Assembly: GCF_000827555.1 (NCBI RefSeq)
Contig: NZ_CDOI01000090.1
Location: forward strand, 1 to 64,000
DNA length: 64,000 nucleotides
Direction of reading: 5' to 3'
Source of the DNA: Capnocytophaga canis
GTDB lineage: Bacteria > Bacteroidota > Bacteroidia > Flavobacteriales > Flavobacteriaceae
Part shown: one piece after another, positions 29,796-39,426 of the stretch
How positions within the stretch are numbered: the stretch's first letter is position 1
Layout of the letters: each line of letters opens with the position of its first letter
Notes under the pieces: model-generated
The model's database searches: none
Told to the model about the DNA's origin: nothing
Seen by the model: only the letters and a program-made list of their open reading frames with translations
Position numbers and translations under genes: made by a program

Positions 29796-30770
29796 ATGGC
29801 AACCAATAAAAATGCACAGTTGCGCTATAAAATCTTAGATGAGTGCTTTTCAAATAGATATAAAAATTTTTTTATAGAAGATTTAATACATATTTGTTCA
29901 GAAAGAATATCTGAACATTTAGGTAAAGAAGTCAGTGTATCAAGAAGACAATTGCTTGATGATATCAAATTTATGGAAAGTTCCGATGGATATGAAGCTC
30001 CTATTGAACACATTAGAGAAGGTAGAAAAGTTTTTTATAGGTACGAAAATCCTAATTTTTCGATACGAAACAGACCTTTTAATCAAGAAGAATCGGAAAG
30101 TTTAAGCGGTGCAATGGAAATTCTTTCTCGTATAGGATTAAATTGGTTGGAACCTTTACAGCTGAAATTACAGTCTATCATAAGTTTTAAGCAAGAGAAA
30201 ATAATTGATTTTGAAGAAAATAAATTTCTAAAAGGGCTTGATTTTTTAAATCCGCTATACCATTACATTATTAATAAACAGAGTTTATTAATTCACTACA
30301 AACCTTTTGTTGAAGATGAAAAAGAATTTTTGATTTCTCCTTATTACCTCAAACAATATAATAACCGATGGTTTTTATTAGGACAAAATCATACGGAAAA
30401 TTATCTACAAGTGATAGCTTTGGACAGAATTATAAATTTGGAACAAACAAAAGAACACTATATTGAACATTCTATTGATTTCGATGAGTATTTTGATGAA
30501 ATTGTGGGAGTTACTCATATAAAAGGGAATGAAATAGAACAAGTAAAAATAGAATTATCAAAAAACATAATTCCTTATGTGATGTCCAAACCTCTGCACG
30601 GTTCACAAAAAATTAAGGGGAATATACTTACCTTTGAGGTACGATTAAATTATGAATTAGAAAACCTAATTTTATCGTATGGAGAAAGCATGAAGGTTTT
30701 AGCTCCTGAAACCCTGAAAAATAGAATTTTACATCGATTAGAATCATCTTTAAACCAATATTCTGAATAA
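29796..30770 (+). CDS. WYL-domain transcriptional regulator
   Basis: A 324-residue DNA-binding protein. Residues 1-90 form a winged-helix-like head, with VSRRQLLDDIKFMESSDGY as the recognition-helix region. From about residue 150 a WYL domain follows, with ISPYYLKQYNNRWFLLGQNH and a conserved ALDRI. WYL proteins sense nucleic-acid or nucleotide ligands and often control defence loci (for example BrxR and CapW). It ends 40 bases before the predicted retron promoter and points into the retron, so it may regulate the island, including itself. No operator is identified. Homologues outside defence loci exist, so the link is by position. Confidence 0.88.
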   Translation: MATNKNAQLRYKILDECFSNRYKNFFIEDLIHICSERISEHLGKEVSVSRRQLLDDIKFMESSDGYEAPIEHIREGRKVFYRYENPNFSIRNRPFNQEESESLSGAMEILSRIGLNWLEPLQLKLQSIISFKQEKIIDFEENKFLKGLDFLNPLYHYIINKQSLLIHYKPFVEDEKEFLISPYYLKQYNNRWFLLGQNHTENYLQVIALDRIINLEQTKEHYIEHSIDFDEYFDEIVGVTHIKGNEIEQVKIELSKNIIPYVMSKPLHGSQKIKGNILTFEVRLNYELENLILSYGESMKVLAPETLKNRILHRLESSLNQYSE

Positions 30771-30809
30771 AAATTACAATCAATGCAGTTAAATCGCACA
30801 AGTGCATTA

Positions 30810-30817
30810 TATCTTTG
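30810..30817 (+). promoter_or_regulatory. -7 box of the retron transcript
   Basis: TATCTTTG fits TAnnTTTG. The -33 position (around 30787-30790) reads AGTT rather than TTTG, so the promoter would be weak or activator-dependent. Transcription would start near 30824, some 15 bases before the a1 arm, as expected for a retron ncRNA. Confidence 0.55.
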
Positions 30818-30838
30818 CAGTGTAAAAAATAAAAAAGT

Positions 30839-31152
30839 TCTTTGAAATACCTATGAAAATATTGATTCGTTAGTTTTTAGGTTTCCTTTAAATTAACGTG
30901 ATTGCTGGATTAAGCAATTAATCAGATCGGCAATTGGCTCGGCTCGCAACCGAGTAAAACAATGTTATCTTAAAAATTGTTTTTAGCTTTCAAAAGAGAA
31001 ATATAATTTATTAATGGTATATGATGATTATTTTCTTTAAGCATAAAGTTTAATATAACATTTAACCTTTAATTAAATTTACAGAGGTTCATCCCATATT
31101 TTACTTTCACTAATACAAGGAAAGAAGAATAAAGTAATAGGTATTTCAAGGA
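30839..31152 (+). ncRNA. Retron msr-msd non-coding RNA
   Basis: The region between the WYL gene and the reverse transcriptase has the retron layout. The a1 arm TCTTTGAAATACCTAT (30839-30854) pairs with the a2 arm ATAGGTATTTCAAGGA (31137-31152) over 16 bp with a single G-U; the core 13 bp are perfect. Just inside a1 comes G30855, the candidate branching guanosine. The msr part holds three stems: ATTGCT/AGCAAT (30901-30918), CTCGG/CCGAG (30938-30954) and AAAACAAT/ATTGTTTT (30956-30983). The msd candidate is a long imperfect hairpin between 31005-31018 and 31065-31079 with an apical CTTTA-AGCA-TAAAG stem-loop (31035-31048). a2 ends 20 bases before the RT start codon. Ends of the mature RNA and the reverse-transcribed part are inferred. 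Confidence 0.85.
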
Positions 31153-31172
31153 TTTTTTAAAACATTGGAGTT

Positions 31173-32354
31173 ATGAAAACGCTAACAACAGAGGAAAAAC
31201 AAGAGCTTAAAAACCGGTTTGAGAACATCTTATCGATAGATGATTTGGTTGAGGTTATCAACTATGTGTATCAGGAGTTGTTAGCAGGTAACGAAATCAG
31301 CAAAGACGATGTTTTGTCCAATGCCGATTTGTCTAACAAAAGATACCATACTTTTTCTATCAGAAAGAAAACAGGAGGTGAACGCGTAATTAACAGACCT
31401 ATGGGTGCATTGGGAATGATGCAAAAAGCCTTGAGTGTTATTTTTACAATTTGCATGAAAATACACCCAAAAGCAATGGGGTTTACAGAAGGAAAATCAG
31501 TGGTTACCAACGCCCAATTGCACATAGGAAAAAATTATGTGTATAATATTGATTTAAAGGATTTTTTTCATTCGTTTAAAAAATGGCAGATCAAAAGGAT
31601 TTTTACTCAAACTCCATTTCAGCTTCCCGAAGAAATTGCAAATTATTTAGCAAGTCTTTGCGTACATACAATAGACATTGATGGCAAAAAAGAACAAGTT
31701 TTACCACAAGGTGCACCGACTTCTCCTATTTTGACCAATATTCTTTGTAAGAAAATGGACATTGCTTTGGATAAATTAGCAAAAAAATATAAGGCTACTT
31801 ATTCAAGATATGCCGATGATATTACATTTTCTTCTAATAAATCGGTGTTTAATAATCCAATTTTTCTACAAGAATTGGAAGCGATTATTCATAAAAATAA
31901 ATTGCAAATCAATCCTAAAAAAACAAGGCTGCAAAAGAAAACAAACCGACAAGAAGTTACAGGCATTACCGTGAATGAAAAACTCAACACCACACGCAAG
32001 TACGTGAAGCAAATTCGTATGTGGCTCTATTTGATTGAAAAATACGGAGCAAAAAAGGCGGAAACCATTTTCCGAAAGGATTATATAAAGGAAAAAGGAC
32101 ACATCAAATACAATCAAAACCCAATGTTTTCAGTCATTGGAGGGAAACTCCTATACCTAAAAATGGTAAAAAGTCAGGAGGATAGTACTTATCAAAAATT
32201 AGCCCAACGATTCGACAAAATTTGTGGATTTAATGTTGATGCTATTTTAGATGTTTGGGAAAAAGAAGGTAAAGAAAAAGCTATGGAAGTTTTTGAAGCA
32301 ACAAAAAGTGAAAAATGGAAAAAAATCCAAAATATTAGGAGCTTCTATTTTTGA
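31173..32354 (+). CDS. Retron reverse transcriptase
   Basis: Copies the msd part of the adjacent ncRNA into multicopy single-stranded DNA joined 2'-5' to the RNA. The 393 residues carry all retron hallmarks: NAQLH at 113-117 (the NAxxH of region X), palm motif A NIDLKDFF at 125-132, QGAPTSP at 179-185, the catalytic YADD at 213-216 and VTG at 262-264 (region Y). There is no maturase or endonuclease domain, so it is not a group II intron. The ATG follows a GGAG-containing stretch and the a2 arm of the ncRNA. The length suggests no fused effector; the effectors should be the downstream genes. Sequence type within the retron classification was not assigned. Confidence 0.95.
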   Translation: MKTLTTEEKQELKNRFENILSIDDLVEVINYVYQELLAGNEISKDDVLSNADLSNKRYHTFSIRKKTGGERVINRPMGALGMMQKALSVIFTICMKIHPKAMGFTEGKSVVTNAQLHIGKNYVYNIDLKDFFHSFKKWQIKRIFTQTPFQLPEEIANYLASLCVHTIDIDGKKEQVLPQGAPTSPILTNILCKKMDIALDKLAKKYKATYSRYADDITFSSNKSVFNNPIFLQELEAIIHKNKLQINPKKTRLQKKTNRQEVTGITVNEKLNTTRKYVKQIRMWLYLIEKYGAKKAETIFRKDYIKEKGHIKYNQNPMFSVIGGKLLYLKMVKSQEDSTYQKLAQRFDKICGFNVDAILDVWEKEGKEKAMEVFEATKSEKWKKIQNIRSFYF

Positions 32355-32404
32355 ACTTTCGATGATGACGAACTATCAGAAATGATTTTAGATAAAGACA
32401 TATT

Positions 32405-33667
32405 ATGAATGATTTTGTAACAGAATTTTTAAAGATAGGCAATTTTAGCTCTCGTCAAAAAGACAAGATGATTGAGTTGATAGCAAAAGATTTAACTAAA
32501 CAAAAGGTTGGCGAAACAACAGAAAATGTACCGGTGTCTGTTATTGAGCCTGATGAAAAATCTGACAAGTCAAAAGATAAAGATTATTTAGGTGAAACCT
32601 TCAAAGATTATAATAATCCATTTGGAGAGAAATCGTTATCCAAGTTTTTACTTGCTTATAACCAAGACCCTTTGTTAAAATACACTTGGCATTCCATTGA
32701 TTCAGAAACAATAGACTATAAAGATGAAATACTCGCAGTTAAGGAATATATAAAGAAATTAAGTGGCTCATCTGAATATTCCGTACGAGAACATCAAAGA
32801 CTATTATTGGAAAAATTTGAAATTTTAAACAACAAATATTACGCTGATTCTCAAGCAAAAACACTATTAAAAGTGTATCTATCGGGTACGAACTTCAAAG
32901 AAGAAAAAAAGGAATGGAGCTCCAATAGAATTGACATCAATTGGGCGAGTGAGCAATTATTAAAATGGTCAGATGAAAATCCTGATTGTGTTCCTAATGC
33001 AAGCGGAGAATTAAAACAGCAGCAAAATGGAAAAATTTTCAAACTACCTAAGCAATTCAATTCGTATATGAATGGAAAAAGAGTTCGGGATTTTTCCGAA
33101 CTCATCATTCACTGTAAAAATCTATTTCATATAAGGACTGATAACTCTTTAAAAAGTATTTTAGAATATAATATTGCTAATAACGAAAATTGGAAAACAA
33201 ACTTTGATTTTCAATTTAAAAATTTTGCAGAAAATATTGTTTTATTTACTGATGTTGATAAGTTGGTTCAATTTTTTAGAGAATATATCAATTCAATAGA
33301 GACCTATTTTTCTGAAGAATACAAAACCGAACAAAAACAAAAAATAATTTTATCCTTCATAGAAGAAACGGGAGGCTTTGTTTATTTTACGATTCATCAC
33401 ATTCATCCCGAAAAGCCTTTCTATGGAAAAAGCTCTGAAAGTACGATTGATAGAAGAGGAAATACATTGACTAGTATGATAAAAAAAATCAACGGGATAT
33501 GTGAATTGTACCTCGAAAGTGATTTTGAAAACGAAACAAGTTATAGAATTAATCTTTGGAATGGAGAATGGAATGATGGAGCAAAAAAATATACTCCAAA
33601 GCTGATGAAAAAAGAAAAAATAGAAAAAGTAAACGGTGTTAAACATATTTTAAAATTCAAACGATGA
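32405..33667 (+). CDS. Unknown protein with degenerate histidine-kinase-like ATPase region
   Basis: Not recognised by family. A 420-residue soluble protein with a charged N-terminus (a Lys/Asp/Glu-rich low-complexity stretch near 45-60). Residues about 265-385 resemble a GHKL/HATPase fold by layout: FTDVDKLVQFFREYINSIET (281-300) in the place of the N-box helix, then FYGKSSESTIDRRGNTLTSM (339-358) and LYLESDFENETSYRINLW (368-385), which mimics the last strands of histidine kinases. The catalytic Asn and the DxGxG motif are not evident, so ATP binding is doubtful. It starts 50 bases after the RT, and its stop overlaps the next ATG (ATGA). The partner has a receiver domain, which supports a two-component-like pair. 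Confidence 0.6.
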   Translation: MNDFVTEFLKIGNFSSRQKDKMIELIAKDLTKQKVGETTENVPVSVIEPDEKSDKSKDKDYLGETFKDYNNPFGEKSLSKFLLAYNQDPLLKYTWHSIDSETIDYKDEILAVKEYIKKLSGSSEYSVREHQRLLLEKFEILNNKYYADSQAKTLLKVYLSGTNFKEEKKEWSSNRIDINWASEQLLKWSDENPDCVPNASGELKQQQNGKIFKLPKQFNSYMNGKRVRDFSELIIHCKNLFHIRTDNSLKSILEYNIANNENWKTNFDFQFKNFAENIVLFTDVDKLVQFFREYINSIETYFSEEYKTEQKQKIILSFIEETGGFVYFTIHHIHPEKPFYGKSSESTIDRRGNTLTSMIKKINGICELYLESDFENETSYRINLWNGEWNDGAKKYTPKLMKKEKIEKVNGVKHILKFKR

Positions 33668-35790
33668 TTTATTTAATTGACGAACAGGTTTTCCGTCAAG
33701 AAACCTACGGCTGGAATATCGAAAAACTTAATGAATATCAAGGGATTATAAGTACACATAAGGATAGTAAAAAGCTCTCCATTGAAAATATCAAGAAAGA
33801 AAAGATTGTGTTTTTGCACGAGTCTTTCCCTAATGAGGGATTAAAAAACCAACTCTATGAACATAACGCTCAAAATAGAGATTTTGGATTAGTGGTTTTT
33901 AGTGGAAGCAAAAACGAACGCCGAAAAAATGCAACGGGAAATCGAGTTGATTTACCTGTAAGTGTTTTCTATAAAAATTTAGAAATTTTCCTACAGGAAA
34001 TAAAAAAAGGGAATAAACCCAATGTCAATTATCTACTATATGGCAGAAATCCCGAAGAAGAGAAAATAATTATTGATGAGATTGATAAACGAAATAATGA
34101 AGTAGATGCAGATCCCATAGTTGCTAAAAAAGAAAATATTATTTTTTTAACAGCCGAAAAATATATTGAAGATCCTTTTAGTAATATGGAATCAGAAACA
34201 TTGTTTTCAGAGAAAAAAGTTTTTTCTGATAGTTTTTTACATCGTGATGTTGTTTTGCATTTTTTAAATGACAAAGTATTTGATAATTTGTACATTCCGT
34301 TATGTTTTGGCAATACGCTTTCCGACCTAAACGGGCTTCGGTTAGCGGCTCATATTCGCTGTACGCCAACTCCAAATCAACTAAAAAATATTTTTATTTA
34401 CGGGGTTGTTCCGTATGAAAAATTGATACAAAATCCGTATTTCGACATTCTGAAAACGAAAAATGTATTTTATATTGACTATAGTATAAAAGCCTTACAA
34501 GAAGCTGAAAAAAGAGTAACAGAACCTTTTCTGCAAAGTGAATTAGCCAATGAAATTAGAAAAATACAGCTCGTAGCACCGAAAGATAATCACAGTATTG
34601 CCAATGAATGGGCAATTTATCGTTGGGCGAAAACTATTGAAAGTTCAGATAATGATATCGAAAAAATCAATGCGAAAATAGAATCTGATTTGTATTATAA
34701 GTATCTGAAAACCATTTATCCGATTTCGGCAACAGATACTAGTCTACAGAACCTAGAAATACAAATACCTCAAGACGAAAAACCTAAAATTCTTTATATC
34801 GATGATGAATCGAAAAAAGGATGGTCCGAAATTTTTGAAACGATTTTATGCCATAATAGTAAAATCGAACAATTTGACTATTTAGATATTGATTTTTCGC
34901 AAAACAGAGAAGAAATTGTGAATCAAGCTGTTCAAAAAATAAAGGCAGATGATATTGATATAGTCATTTTGGATTTTAGATTACATCATTCTGATTTTGA
35001 AAATAATGACCTAAAAGGAAACACGAGTATAAGAATATTACAGGAAATAAAAAAATACAATCAAGGAATACAGGTAATATATTTTTCGGCAACCAATAAA
35101 ATTTGGAATTTGCAAAAATTACAAGCATTAGGAGCGGATGGATTTATCATTAAAGAAGCACCCGAAAATAGTATTGATCCCCAATTTACTGCTGATACCA
35201 TTGGCAACTTTAAAGAAGTAATGGAAACTGCTGTAAAAAGAAAGTTTTTGAAAATAATATTCTTAATTTGTAAACAAATCAAGAAAAATATTGAAAATCA
35301 GATTGCTTTAAATCCGTTCGAAGAATACAATAAGTTTCTAAAAATTTTAATAACACAAATAAAAATTATAGAGCAAGCTATTTCTAAAATAGACTTAAAA
35401 GTGAAAATGTCAATGGATATCGTATTTCTGAGTGCATATAATTTTTTAGAACATTTCAAAAACTATTATTTTAAATATGATAACAAAGATTATAGATATT
35501 ACATAGGAGAAAAAAAAGAAGATGTAAATAATTATTATTTTGATAGACAAAATAAATTTATTAAAAACAAAGATGTTATCAAAGATTTAACTTGGTTTTG
35601 TGCAATGGCAAATCTATTTATTGATTATTTTGAAATCTGTAGTCAAGAAGATAAAAAAGTGGAATACCTCAACAAGGTAAAAGATAAAAGAAATAACTAT
35701 ATCCACGAGGATAAATCATTTTTTGATGAGAAAGAAGTTATTATGGTTCTGTCTCTTTGTGAAAATATAACCAGCAAGTTAAAACCTTGA
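33664..35790 (+). CDS. Receiver-domain protein with C-terminal HEPN-like Rx4H motif
   Basis: A 708-residue protein with three parts. Residues 1-370 are unfamiliar; GRNPEEEKIII and a segment near 205-275 could be a second, degenerate receiver-like fold. Residues 374-500 form a response-regulator receiver: acidic pair in ILYIDDES (380-382), phospho-acceptor Asp437 in VILDFRL, switch Ser475 in YFSATN and Lys497 in FIIKE. Residues 520-708 are helical and end in KRNNYIH (675-681), which gives R676-x4-H681 with Asn next to Arg, the hallmark of HEPN RNases. No DNA-binding output domain is seen. By inference it is a phosphorylation- or ligand-gated RNase effector of the retron. Coupled to the preceding gene by a 4-base overlap. 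Confidence 0.7.
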   Translation: MIYLIDEQVFRQETYGWNIEKLNEYQGIISTHKDSKKLSIENIKKEKIVFLHESFPNEGLKNQLYEHNAQNRDFGLVVFSGSKNERRKNATGNRVDLPVSVFYKNLEIFLQEIKKGNKPNVNYLLYGRNPEEEKIIIDEIDKRNNEVDADPIVAKKENIIFLTAEKYIEDPFSNMESETLFSEKKVFSDSFLHRDVVLHFLNDKVFDNLYIPLCFGNTLSDLNGLRLAAHIRCTPTPNQLKNIFIYGVVPYEKLIQNPYFDILKTKNVFYIDYSIKALQEAEKRVTEPFLQSELANEIRKIQLVAPKDNHSIANEWAIYRWAKTIESSDNDIEKINAKIESDLYYKYLKTIYPISATDTSLQNLEIQIPQDEKPKILYIDDESKKGWSEIFETILCHNSKIEQFDYLDIDFSQNREEIVNQAVQKIKADDIDIVILDFRLHHSDFENNDLKGNTSIRILQEIKKYNQGIQVIYFSATNKIWNLQKLQALGADGFIIKEAPENSIDPQFTADTIGNFKEVMETAVKRKFLKIIFLICKQIKKNIENQIALNPFEEYNKFLKILITQIKIIEQAISKIDLKVKMSMDIVFLSAYNFLEHFKNYYFKYDNKDYRYYIGEKKEDVNNYYFDRQNKFIKNKDVIKDLTWFCAMANLFIDYFEICSQEDKKVEYLNKVKDKRNNYIHEDKSFFDEKEVIMVLSLCENITSKLKP

Positions 35791-35853: not shown

Positions 35854-37908
35854 ATGAACCCTCTCACACAAGAACAACAAGAAATAATAAACACCCTATT
35901 CTCTTTTCTAGAAAAAGAAAATGAGCATATCTTTATTGTAAAAGGAGCTGCGGGGTCGGGAAAAACAACTTTAATAAAGTACCTTATTGATAAATTAAAA
36001 GAAAATCAAAAATTGTTTAAAGTAATGGCTCCCACAGGAAGAGCTTCCAAGGTACTTCGTGATAAAGGTATTAATGCCTCTACCATTCATCGGGGAATTT
36101 ATAATTTTGAAGATGTTATCATTAAAGAAGTGGAAAATCCTGATGACTCGAAAAAATCATATCACTATATTTATCCACTTCATTTCCCGAATGAAAACGG
36201 AGAAATAGTAATCATTGATGAGGCATCAATGGTTTCGGATGTAGAAACAAAACACGAATTATTTACTTTCGGTTCAGGAAAATTATTAAGTGATGTCATT
36301 CAATATGCTAATTTTTCTAATCGCTATTCCAAATTAATATTCGTAGGAGATAATGCCCAGCTTCCGCCAGTAACAGACAATGAGTCGAAAGCGTTGTCTG
36401 TTGAGTACTTTCAATCGGAACACAAACTGAATGTTCAAGAAGCCGAACTAACCACCATTCATCGGCAATTAGTAGATAGCACAATTTTGCAGAACGCTAA
36501 TGAAATACGAAATTTATTAAAAAAGCCTAAGGAACAACGAAATACCTTTGAACTACTTATCAAAAATGAAGTAGAAGAAATTTCAAATATTGACCTTACT
36601 TCGCATTTCACCGATAAATTTCCAGAACCTAAAATCGGCAATGGGGTTATCGTATGTTATTCTAATCAAGGAGCTTATCAATACAATCAATCTATTCGTG
36701 AAAAAATATTTCCCAATAGCCCTAATGTGAGTATTGGAGATATTTTGATGGTTATTAATAACAATTATAATCAGGGAGTTTTCAATGGAGATATGGCAAC
36801 GGTTACCGAAGTATCTGCGGATGTAGAAGAAATAAAAAACATTCCTGTATATGAAAAAGGGAAAAAGATATATGTAAATTTTTCTTTCCGAAATGTAAAA
36901 TTGAAATTCCCACATCTATCAGAAGAAGTTTCCTGTAAAATCATTGATTCACTATTAAATTCTCCTTATAGAGACTTGAATGTTACGGAAATGAAGGCTT
37001 TGTATATCAATTTCGTAATGCGTTTTCGTGAAAAATACCCTCAATACAAAGAAGGTTCGCAGGAATTTAAAGAAGCTCTAAAAACAGATCTATATTTCAA
37101 TGCTTTACGCGTGAAATATGGCTATGCTATCACCTGCCATAAATCGCAAGGTGGCGAGTGGGACAGTGTTTATGTGGATTATTCGGGAAGAATTGGACTA
37201 TACGATGATGCCCTAAGATGGTGCTATACGGCAACTACTCGGGCAAAAAAAGAACTATTTGTTATCAATCCACCTAAAATAAATGGATTCCATCGCTTAG
37301 AAATAAGACCGATTACCAAAATTGGAAAAATTGGAAAAGAATTTTATCAAAACACACACACTTTTTCAACACCTTTTCACACTGAAAACGCACATATTGC
37401 ACTGCGTTTGAAATATCAAGAGGTGGAAAGTAAACTCCGTAGCACGCCTTTTTCCATTGATAGGATAGTCTCAAGCAACTATTTAGAGAAATATTTTTTC
37501 AAGATAGAAAATGAAATCATTCAGATAGATTGGTATTATGACGGAGCAGGAATATTTAAAACCTTACAAAATCGCCATTATGAAATTGAAAATCAACTTA
37601 TTGAAACACTTAACGCTCCTTTTTATCACGAATTTGCAGTGAATTACTCAACGGAAAATTCACTTTTCAAAGAATTATACAACCGAATATTAACCGCTTG
37701 TAGTGAATGCGAGGTTCAAATTACCAATATTGTGGAACACGAAGCAAATTTTCACATCAATTATTACCTAAAAACAGACGCAAAATTTGCCTATCTACAA
37801 TGTTATTTCACAAAAGATAAAGGTTTTACCTCGGTGCTTCCTTTTTCTGAACAAGGGAGCGAAGATGTTGAATTACAAAAGCTAGTGAATTTCATCAACC
37901 AAAATTAA
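35854..37908 (+). CDS. SF1 DNA helicase (RecD/Pif1-like)
   Basis: ATP-driven helicase of 684 residues. Motif I GAAGSGKTT at 31-39, a TGRAS motif (Ia) at 61-65, motif II DEAS at 122-125, motif III GDNAQLPPV at 165-173, motif V TCHKSQGGEWDSVYVD near 427-442 and motif VI CYTATTRAK near 457-465 are all intact, as in RecD2 and Pif1 relatives of the UvrD_C_2 group. A C-terminal region of about 200 residues (480-684) is unfamiliar and could bind a partner. It has its own promoter, and the next gene starts 6 bases on. It could act on the retron DNA, on invader DNA, or belong to a separate system. Confidence 0.93.
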   Translation: MNPLTQEQQEIINTLFSFLEKENEHIFIVKGAAGSGKTTLIKYLIDKLKENQKLFKVMAPTGRASKVLRDKGINASTIHRGIYNFEDVIIKEVENPDDSKKSYHYIYPLHFPNENGEIVIIDEASMVSDVETKHELFTFGSGKLLSDVIQYANFSNRYSKLIFVGDNAQLPPVTDNESKALSVEYFQSEHKLNVQEAELTTIHRQLVDSTILQNANEIRNLLKKPKEQRNTFELLIKNEVEEISNIDLTSHFTDKFPEPKIGNGVIVCYSNQGAYQYNQSIREKIFPNSPNVSIGDILMVINNNYNQGVFNGDMATVTEVSADVEEIKNIPVYEKGKKIYVNFSFRNVKLKFPHLSEEVSCKIIDSLLNSPYRDLNVTEMKALYINFVMRFREKYPQYKEGSQEFKEALKTDLYFNALRVKYGYAITCHKSQGGEWDSVYVDYSGRIGLYDDALRWCYTATTRAKKELFVINPPKINGFHRLEIRPITKIGKIGKEFYQNTHTFSTPFHTENAHIALRLKYQEVESKLRSTPFSIDRIVSSNYLEKYFFKIENEIIQIDWYYDGAGIFKTLQNRHYEIENQLIETLNAPFYHEFAVNYSTENSLFKELYNRILTACSECEVQITNIVEHEANFHINYYLKTDAKFAYLQCYFTKDKGFTSVLPFSEQGSEDVELQKLVNFINQN

Positions 37909-37914
37909 AAACTT

Positions 37915-39426
37915 ATGACAACCGTTACCGAACTCAGAAAAGCAGGAAAATTAAAAGAGGCTTGGGAGTTAGCAAATAGTCAATTAGAAAAAAATCCTAA
38001 TGATATTTGGGTTAAGAGAGATTTGGCTTGGGTGTATTATGAGTATTTGAAACAATACGCTTCTGTGCAAACTTTCACTCAATTCAATAAAATTATAAAC
38101 AAACTACTTGTTCTACAATTGCCTGAGGAGGAAAATATATTGTATGAAACGGTAGGTTGGCAATTTGTAAAAATAGTAAATAATATTTGTAGACAGGGAA
38201 ATATTGATTATTCAAAGATAAATACACTTTTTGAACATTGTAAATCCTTGTATTTTCAACAACCATCAGATTTGTACTCTGCTATACTAAAAAATTTTCA
38301 TAAGGCGTATAAAAACAATCATCAAAAATACATTGAATTTGTTGATTGGTGGGATTTAGATAATTTACAAGAGAAAGATTTTCAGAAAGAACATTATGAT
38401 GGGCAAGACATAGCTGCATTAGCTGACCAAGTATATTGTGCTTATGCAAAACATCTGTTGCCTTTCAAAAATATTTATCAAGAGACTATATTTGACAAAG
38501 AAAAAGCGGAGAATTTTCTGCCTAAATTAGAGGAAATAGCAGCCAAACATCCAAATTATCAGTACATTTCGTATTATCAAGCGAAAATACTTTTAGCTTT
38601 GGGAAATAATGAAAATATGCTTTCTGCCTTATTGCCCTTTGCTCGAAAAAAGAAAAACGATTTTTGGGTTTGGGATATTCTTGCAGATGCTTTTTATGAG
38701 GATAAGGAAAAAGTTTTTGCTTGTTATTGCAAAGGATTGCTTTGCCCTGCTGATGAAAAAATGACGACCAAACTTCGTGAAAAAGTAATTCCTTTCTTTT
38801 TAGAAAGACAACTTTTCAATGAAGCCAAAGCAGAAGTCGATACAATTATTAGGATCAAGAAAGCTAACGAACATAAAATTCCTGTCCAAATAAGCTCCTA
38901 TCAAAATACACAATGGTATCAAGGAGCTAATGCTAATCAGCATAACCGTTCAATATACCGACAATTTGCTACTTCTGCCGAAGATATTTTATTTGGAAAT
39001 CTTGCAGAAGAAGTAGTCATTATTGAGAATATAAATTCTGATAAAAAAATAGTGAATATAATCACACAAAATAGCGAGCGTCTATTTTTTAAATACGACA
39101 AATTTTTGAAAAATCCTCAAATAGGCAAAACTTATAAAATTCGTTTTACACAGAAAGAAATAAATGCCCCAAGCAAAGTAGCAACACTGTCAGAATATCA
39201 GGATACTAAATTAACCGATAGTTACATTAAAGAATTTTCAGGGAAAATAAATATTCCAAAAAATAAAAATTTTGGTTTTGTAGATGACATTTTTATAAAT
39301 CCACAACTTTTCCAAAAATACGACTTAACAACAGGCGATTATGTAACAGGAAAAGCAATACAAACCATTGATAAAAAGACAGGAAAACCCACTTGGAAGG
39401 TGTTTTCACTATCTAAGAACCACTAA
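37915..39426 (+). CDS. TPR protein with two cold-shock/S1-like domains
   Basis: A 503-residue protein. Residues 1-320 are helical repeats of TPR type, beginning LRKAGKLKEAWELANSQLEK (20 residues). Residues about 355-412 form one OB-like domain and 440-500 another. The second is close to a cold-shock domain: FSGKINIPKNKNFGFVDDIF (441-460), then INPQLFQKYDLTTGDYVTGK, with the aromatic FGFVDDIF strand that contacts nucleic acid. From memory, TPR proteins with S1/CSD-like domains are reported in 'TOTE' conflict systems next to helicases; this is not verified. It follows the helicase by 6 bases and closes the island. It may be an RNA/DNA sensor or adaptor for the helicase. Confidence 0.75.
   Translation: MTTVTELRKAGKLKEAWELANSQLEKNPNDIWVKRDLAWVYYEYLKQYASVQTFTQFNKIINKLLVLQLPEEENILYETVGWQFVKIVNNICRQGNIDYSKINTLFEHCKSLYFQQPSDLYSAILKNFHKAYKNNHQKYIEFVDWWDLDNLQEKDFQKEHYDGQDIAALADQVYCAYAKHLLPFKNIYQETIFDKEKAENFLPKLEEIAAKHPNYQYISYYQAKILLALGNNENMLSALLPFARKKKNDFWVWDILADAFYEDKEKVFACYCKGLLCPADEKMTTKLREKVIPFFLERQLFNEAKAEVDTIIRIKKANEHKIPVQISSYQNTQWYQGANANQHNRSIYRQFATSAEDILFGNLAEEVVIIENINSDKKIVNIITQNSERLFFKYDKFLKNPQIGKTYKIRFTQKEINAPSKVATLSEYQDTKLTDSYIKEFSGKINIPKNKNFGFVDDIFINPQLFQKYDLTTGDYVTGKAIQTIDKKTGKPTWKVFSLSKNH

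Follow-up and report, generated by a model that had tools for sequence, protein, structure and literature searches.

The interval 30839-31152 of the window, by which the whole stretch of 64,000 nucleotides of Capnocytophaga canis analysed here is meant, is probably the msr-msd RNA of a retron, whose RT-msDNA complex would hold in check an effector module made of a histidine-kinase-like (HK-like) protein and a receiver protein with a HEPN-like C-terminus. This reading is based on a reverse transcriptase (RT) of retron class encoded directly downstream and on the covariation of the two terminal arms of the RNA, a1 and a2. The elements of the non-coding RNA (ncRNA) and of the region upstream of it are the following:

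30783-30799, no strand assigned: candidate operator ATGCAGTTAAATCGCAC, a palindrome TGCA-N7-TGCA with one mismatch
30810-30817, plus strand: candidate -7 promoter box TATCTTTG, TAnnTTTG type
30839-30854, plus strand: a1 arm of the putative retron ncRNA, TCTTTGAAATACCTAT (pairing, fold, covariation)
30864, plus strand: invariant linker G after a1, in AUAUUGAUU (30/30 rows, alignments A2 and A7)
30868-30898, plus strand: extra msr hairpin, absent from most relatives (fold; alignment A7)
30900-30935, plus strand: conserved msr stem, UGCUGG ... GAUCGGCA (columns 41-49/97-105; model R1)
30937-30955, plus strand: second conserved msr stem (columns 109-114/141-146 of the covariation alignment)
30961-31062, plus strand: long msd-type hairpin (fold; sequence not conserved in the alignment)
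31137-31152, plus strand: a2 arm of the putative retron ncRNA, ATAGGTATTTCAAGGA (pairing, fold, covariation)

The first-pass annotation had read a 16-bp a1/a2 repeat with one G-U pair directly from the sequence and had set the end of a2 20 bases before the RT; the coordinates of the helix hold, and so does the spacing, with the RT start codon at 31173. Between 30771-30970 and 31000-31172 the a1/a2 helix was the top long-range helix, scored as 30833-30854 with 31137-31158 at 39.0, a strength never attained when the intergenic region was dinucleotide-shuffled 2000 times (shuffle maximum 37.5). The minimum free energy (MFE) fold of 30839-31152 reached -79.1 kcal/mol and closed on the a1/a2 arms, with a z of -5.7 (100 dinucleotide shuffles: mean -50.7, sd 5.0). 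It contains the three stems 30868-30898, 30900-30935 and 30937-30955, the long hairpin 30961-31062 and two more small hairpins absent from the earlier list. All three msr stems and the msd hairpin proposed before are thus present in the fold, but the first stem is almost private to the window: by reading alignment A7, a counterpart insert was seen in one of the 29 other rows (L055), and the hairpin is missing in the same-genus relative L239. Similarly, the limits of the RNA had been fixed roughly right without homology, although relatives were needed to tell which stems are conserved, and arm ends vary slightly among them. At gathering score, Rfam returned a single match for the whole window, a tRNA outside the ncRNA region. 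A tRNA match at 31039-31107 in the msd region (22.4 bits, below the cut-off of 29) was treated as probably due to chance.

Relatives were collected by means of the RT. Direct search of genome contigs with the single RT sequence gave no relative and an alignment query succeeded; the 82 loci worked on are the best 80 of 569 RT relatives confirmed by protein-alignment search, together with the window and L023. Not all of them are independent, as L056 and L068 come from one MAG, L099 and L105 from another single MAG, and L065/L074 as well as L102/L104 are near-copies. Thirty loci, window included, with GTTCTTTGAAA-like and GATCGGCA-like motifs at most 420 bases upstream of the RT were aligned; one of these selection motifs lies partly inside a1 and none inside a2, and L102 was left out on account of an implausible RT start and motif distance. 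Unguided, RNAalifold found ten a1/a2 pairs, the UGCUGG/UCGGCA stem and the next stem, with at least one double-sided change in 18 of 24 pairs. Over the 16 pairs named from the window and one inner pair, 85.7% of the cells in the 30 sequences pair, and the double-sided compensatory cells numbered 46, compared with 10.6 ± 2.9 in 500 shuffles and with 3-9 in a control in which the partner was slid by 1-3 columns. In the window's register the outer pairs at columns 6/447 and 9/444 are formed in only 4/30 and 10/30 rows, apparently owing to a one-base bulge in most relatives. At columns 41-49/97-105, which correspond to stem 30900-30935, the window's own row was misaligned by MAFFT.

A check outside this set was made by running an msr-only covariance model, built on 14 pairs with a1/a2 excluded, on 75 sources. 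For 21 loci outside the alignment the 36 bases around the a1 end were compared with the 130 bases that precede the RT and the first 25 of the RT itself, and 18 of them showed an a1/a2 helix at p<=0.01, i.e. beating at least 99% of 1000 mononucleotide shuffles per locus. The arms themselves differ widely (AAGCCTGCTGC/GCAGCAGGCTT, TACTCGC/GCGAGTA, TGGAAGTACAG/CTGTACTTCCA), and same-locus pairs of arms averaged 30.3 against 18.2 ± 3.8 for cross-locus pairs. The covariation of a1 with a2, the absence of which the first-pass annotation had named as refuting its reading, is found in the alignment, and loci beyond it show the pairing. Among the 21 loci no a1/a2 pairing was seen in L031 and L216, and L060 was marginal (p=0.038). 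L054 and L061 had also been included in an earlier exploratory scan, and L056 and L068 share arms; L065 (near-copy of L074) and L034 and L073 (partial model matches) were left out, as were L075, L072 and the second L033 match, which are not upstream of an RT. The exploratory scan of 37 loci with loose boundaries had given 29.4 for own and 22.8 (sd 5.0) for cross-locus pairs, with 4/37 above the best of 740 shuffles, a moderate separation that is put down to wrongly placed RT starts in part of the loci. In L031 (7657-8564; L019 is this locus too) msr and RT are separated by an ORF of about 187 aa, which seems to interrupt the msd.

The msr was also detected in three more loci, one of the window's genus and two on plasmids (E 1e-11 to 4.5e-7), the arms of which pair weakly or suggestively, 14, 42 and 69 of 500 shuffles being equally good. 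A motif match, or a model match at E<0.01, revealed the ncRNA in 44 of the 82 loci and in 28 of the 47 loci with an HK gene; five further loci match the model at E 0.01-0.22 and pair well, and with motif and model it went unseen in many distant or contig-edge members of the 82. Two distant RTs (L025 5012-6706 and L026 5501-6766) also have a ATATTGATT motif upstream.

In described retrons the priming G either is part of the a1 stem or comes directly after its end (PMC6868368, excerpt). The G noted directly after a1 is indeed present in the window at 30855, but it is not conserved in relatives, its column (21/432) being a C paired with G in 26/30 rows. G30864, in UAUUGA, would be the likelier and best candidate for the priming guanosine, because it is the sole invariant G of the linker.

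Around the ncRNA the window encodes the following proteins:

29796-30770, plus strand: WYL-domain regulator gene (WYL + WCX; Pfam PF13280, PF25583)
31173-32354, plus strand: reverse transcriptase assigned to the retrons, 393 aa (Pfam RVT_1, 7.1e-25)
32405-33667, plus strand: histidine-kinase-like protein, HisKin-conflict (Pfam PF22561, 3.2e-79)
33664-35790, plus strand: receiver protein with REC-like N-terminus, iREC, receiver domain and HEPN-like C-terminus (Pfam PF22563, 1.6e-30)
35224-35790, plus strand: HEPN-like C-terminal domain of the former, candidate RNase effector (invariant E, R and H in 24 chosen sequences)
35854-37908, plus strand: RecD-like SF1 helicase with TBP-TOTE domain (Pfam PF22721, PF13604; PADLOC PDC-M16A, 1.7e-253)
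37915-39426, plus strand: TPR / DUF7017 / S1-CSD protein, TOTE partner (Pfam PF22860, PF22707, PF22708; PADLOC PDC-M16B, 3.5e-219)

The order is accordingly WYL - ncRNA - RT - HisKin-like - REC/iREC/REC with HEPN-like C-terminus - RecD/TBP helicase - TPR/OB protein. Profile and structure-database matches place the RT in the retron class. Among the best 25 of 49 PADLOC matches RT-Protease_XI came first (1e-102), followed by XII and I-C, and the type IX RT profile reached 168 bits vs 343 bits for the best; retron RTs lead the PDB list, with the Retron Ec67 protein as best match (1.4e-40), and in NCBIfam TIR and Ec67 retron models lead, below their curated cut-offs. Non-retron RT classes (group II intron, DRT) scored far more weakly than the retron models. 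The profiles of types XI, XII and I-C were matched over their RT part alone, that of type XI for instance at 32-331 of 510, and no protease, TIR or Toprim effector part was found in the window RT with PADLOC profiles and Pfam. For the other proteins PADLOC gave no match to HK and receiver protein, and NCBIfam none to the HK, receiver, DUF7017 and WYL proteins. In L071, L082, L083, L099, L105, L106 and other Bacteroidales loci the RT is not fused to HK, yet its ORF is about 480-660 aa long and bears a C-terminal extension.

Linkage of the RT to the kinase-like gene is a recurrent trait. Profile searches located both HK and iREC in 47/82 loci, and the same gene order is found in many families of Bacteroidota, so that to call the locus a new Bacteroidota example, as had been done, understated the case: it is a member of an operon family with an unusual set of proteins. 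RT and HK form one ORF in 13/82 loci; in the 34 unfused HK loci the two genes always share a strand, and 32 of these loci have gaps of -62 to 33 nt, the window one of 50 and another locus one of 191. On an RT tree (86 rows, quick method, with long branches for the window and L087) 8 changes are needed for the fused/unfused state and 15 for presence or absence of the HK module, and at least six fused-label changes are forced by well-supported branches alone. That the kinase-like protein may work with the RT is best supported by these repeated fusions. In the window an open stretch in the RT frame (32352-32408) follows the RT stop and overlaps the HK start.

The model of the HK-like protein (pLDDT 84) matches histidine-kinase CA domains in its C-terminal half (Z 11.8, 142 aligned); Foldseek gave no match to it at E<=0.001 (best 1.8e-3). 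A CA (GHKL) fold is thereby predicted, and it is accompanied by a conserved histidine, His96, which is invariant in 46/46 rows. At the positions that we take to be the G1 and N-box motifs, the G1 Asp is kept in 2/46 rows and replaced by His or Gln in 44/46, and the position aligned with the N-box, where the alignment is unsure, has Asn in 4/46 rows. Because both motifs are degenerate, it is doubtful that this protein transfers phosphate from ATP, and the relay may be a matter of conformation only.

In the receiver protein the receiver domain was detected just below the Pfam cut-off (PF00072, 5.7e-7) and with a custom REC profile (8e-17). Receivers usually carry a set of residues that corresponds here to D380/D381, D437 and K497. 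D381, D437 and K497, together with E596, R676 and H681 of the C-terminus, are invariant in 22 chosen sequences, and D380 is nearly or fully so; over 47 rows the Asp-Asp/Asp/Lys set is kept in 45-47 and E/R/H in 44-45. The C-terminal piece was modelled as mostly helical (pLDDT 95), and HEPN toxins, AF0298 and Csm6 are among its VIA-align rows at Z 6.4-7.9, most over residues 32-188, where they tie with unrelated helical rows; with this method helical folds can often give Z values below about 13, and the top row was an unrelated helical protein (Z 8.3). Foldseek gave no match to this model at E<=0.001, and Pfam nothing above cut-off for the HEPN-like pieces, that of the window included. In 45/47 loci the final 130 aa of the iREC protein contain an Rx4-6H motif, the misses being L034, which runs off its contig, and L046, which stops 18 bases before the contig end. 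The C-terminus looks like a HEPN domain and is a candidate RNase, judging by the three residues that never vary and by a fold match of middling strength. In L036 and L032 the receiver protein is split over two adjacent ORFs.

RecD and DUF7017 genes stand near HK and iREC in 20 loci and occur without HK in 16. In many of the HK-less RecD loci, and in some RecD-less ones, the place of HK is taken by a protein of about 235-335 aa in which QxExxxN and RN..H are invariant. There are 14 such proteins, or 15 sequences when the C-terminal piece of the L025 RT is counted, and the loci with an RN..H protein in the HK-iREC slot after the RT are L040-L043, L047, L049, L053, L057, L065, L076, L079, L096, L097 and L021. 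The group nearest L040 has R-N-x-x-H spacing, shorter than the usual HEPN spacing, and in a profile comparison the two HEPN-like groups reached 12% probability (E 0.0023), on which no common origin is claimed. The RT of L025 itself has a C-terminal extension with the RN..H signature.

A WYL gene is present in 60/82 loci, from 6.5 kb before to 9 kb after the RT start. Exact TGCAN7TGCA palindromes were found in 23/30 aligned loci in the 95 bases upstream of the ncRNA, 36-38 bases away from it in 20, and in 8/6000 mononucleotide-shuffled control regions; the window's palindrome has one mismatch and lies 14-15 bases further from the ncRNA than in relatives. Close before the ncRNA many of the 30 loci have a box resembling TAnnTTTG, which we take to be the Bacteroidota -7 consensus. 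Owing to the WYL gene near the RT and the conserved palindrome, a WYL-controlled promoter is the natural reading, with the palindrome as candidate WYL operator. Precedent exists in BrxR, a WYL protein which binds inverted repeats at a defence locus (PMC9122601, excerpt).

By domain content the last two genes form a TOTE pair, a TPR-OB protein with a TBP domain partner. Among the ten strongest DUF7017 relatives outside the window (247 genomes), two of them on stretches that end at contig ends, a RecD partner is present in seven and a retron RT in one, and helicase and TPR/OB protein are therefore regarded as a separable module. A search of 247 phylum genomes for HK and iREC found them nowhere but in the genome of the window itself, a result which is uninformative on HK-iREC without a retron.

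The distribution of RT relatives is patchy. Own genome included, they were found in 14/397 genomes of the family (E<=1e-40), in 2/20 of the genus and, at E<=1e-60, in 2/395 phylum and 3/296 order genomes. The second genus member has the whole operon, including the receiver fusion, set between other genes. Relatives of the receiver protein (E<=1e-3) occur in 2/72,556 plasmid records, both Chryseobacterium plasmids, on which the receiver gene is the third after an RT relative annotated merely as reverse transcriptase, with restriction-modification genes upstream. The plasmid search with the HK protein gave no match; on both plasmids an unnamed gene of similar size holds the HK position. RT relatives were also present in 54 phage records and at 79 viral loci, of which L107 and L109 were looked at. 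Patchy spread and presence on plasmids would fit a mobile defence system.

From these elements the following course of events can be proposed for what is probably an anti-phage alarm. The ncRNA would be transcribed from the promoter just upstream of a1, with the WYL protein repressing the operon; closed by the a1/a2 helix, it would serve as template for the RT whose gene starts 20 bases further on, with the 2'-OH of the invariant G30864 most likely as primer. The resulting RT-msDNA particle is expected to restrain the effector module, namely the HK-like protein and the receiver protein with its HEPN RNase-like C-terminus. A phage product that disturbs the particle would send a signal via the HK-like protein and the receiver, upon which the HEPN-like domain, freed or activated, would cut RNA and stop the cell; the RecD/TBP helicase and the TPR/OB protein would act as a second, separable TOTE-type module. 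We hold it to be an evenly balanced question whether msDNA in this way gates a toxin through a two-component-like relay, from RT-msDNA over HK-like protein and receiver to the HEPN RNase, in a slot repeatedly swapped for a short HEPN-like protein while RNA, RT and WYL are kept.

Three other explanations have to be weighed. Since the RT scores best against types XI, XII and I-C, and since defence genes are known to cluster, the locus might be an already described retron of one of these types that has lost its effector, next to which HK, receiver and helicase are unrelated neighbours in a defence island. We consider this unlikely, for RT and HK are fused in 13/82 loci, HK and iREC keep the same order across many Bacteroidota families in 47/82, and the effector parts of XI, XII and I-C are unmatched in the window RT. 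Still less credible is a leader or attenuator role, in which the structured 5' RNA would belong to the RT operon without being reverse transcribed: covariation by itself cannot separate an RNA template from a regulatory leader, but complementary ends around msr and msd, directly before a retron-class RT, are the retron layout (PMC6868368, excerpt).

A variant of the preferred reading, possible though we lean against it, keeps the HK-receiver-HEPN module as effector and dispenses with phosphate transfer, the HK-like protein being an inert scaffold and the receiver allosteric. The degenerate ATP-site motifs and the 'inactive receiver' domain of the receiver protein speak in its favour, yet the retention of His96 in all 46 rows and of the receiver phospho-acceptor set in 45-47 of 47 is hard to explain without phosphate chemistry. 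An RT-msDNA complex that restrains the HK-like/receiver/HEPN-like module thus remains our favoured interpretation.

A central question of retron biology, still open, is how msDNA communicates with an effector, and RT-HK fusions together with a candidate nuclease behind a receiver domain offer discrete mutable steps, i.e. His96, Asp437 and Arg676/His681. To our knowledge few Bacteroidota retrons have been characterised, and the defined ncRNA, its covariance model and the promoter layout provide means to find such ncRNAs in this phylum. The Pfam names HisKin, iREC and TOTE presumably come from conflict-system work, and for this reason a review by Aravind et al. from 2022, cited in PMC12458937, may mention RTs beside such genes. 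In the open-access literature, no paper joining retrons with HK, receiver or iREC genes was among the matches listed (titles and abstract openings); HATPase and REC are listed among predicted defence-system domains in a figure legend, where they are not tied to a retron (PMC13092281, excerpt).

With Retron-Eco1 and Eco2 the locus has in common an msr-msd RNA whose ends are complementary and which directly precedes a retron-class RT, and with retrons in general an invariant G in the linker after a1; the context of the priming G, however, would be UUGA, as opposed to TAGC, CAGA, CAGC, GAGC and ACGC listed there, and msDNA is predicted here (PMC6868368, excerpt). Retrons are classified into 13 types, and from the matches obtained we read the present system as a type outside the catalogues searched. 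It resembles types XI (RT-protease), XII (RT-TIR) and I-C (RT-Toprim; Ec67) in its best-scoring RT profiles (among the best 25 of 49 matches) and differs in its separate or fused HK-like protein, with no protease, TIR or Toprim part matched. In its proposed effector it resembles type IX retron-Kva2, in which a HEPN RNase is held by the RT-msDNA complex (PMC13405049, preprint of July 2026, excerpt), as is proposed for the family of the window. However, Kva2 combines a HEPN protein, in which the canonical HEPN motif is missing, with a winged-helix protein (PMC13405049, excerpt), whereas the window has the HEPN-like end of a receiver protein together with an HK-like protein; among its six proteins Pfam found no HEPN and winged-helix gene pair, and Pfam also misses the HEPN-like domain.

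The regulatory part recalls BrxR-type WYL regulators in having a WYL gene adjoining a defence operon and an inverted repeat near the promoter, although the repeat is a different one and binding here is predicted (PMC9122601, excerpt). TOTE conflict systems, named after TPR, OB, TBP and Effector, share with the locus the TPR-OB protein and the TBP domain, which is fused here to a RecD-like helicase; they differ in that the neighbour here is a putative retron, and the pair was also found without RT in our sample (PMC12458937, excerpt). The locus links retrons with TOTE conflict systems.
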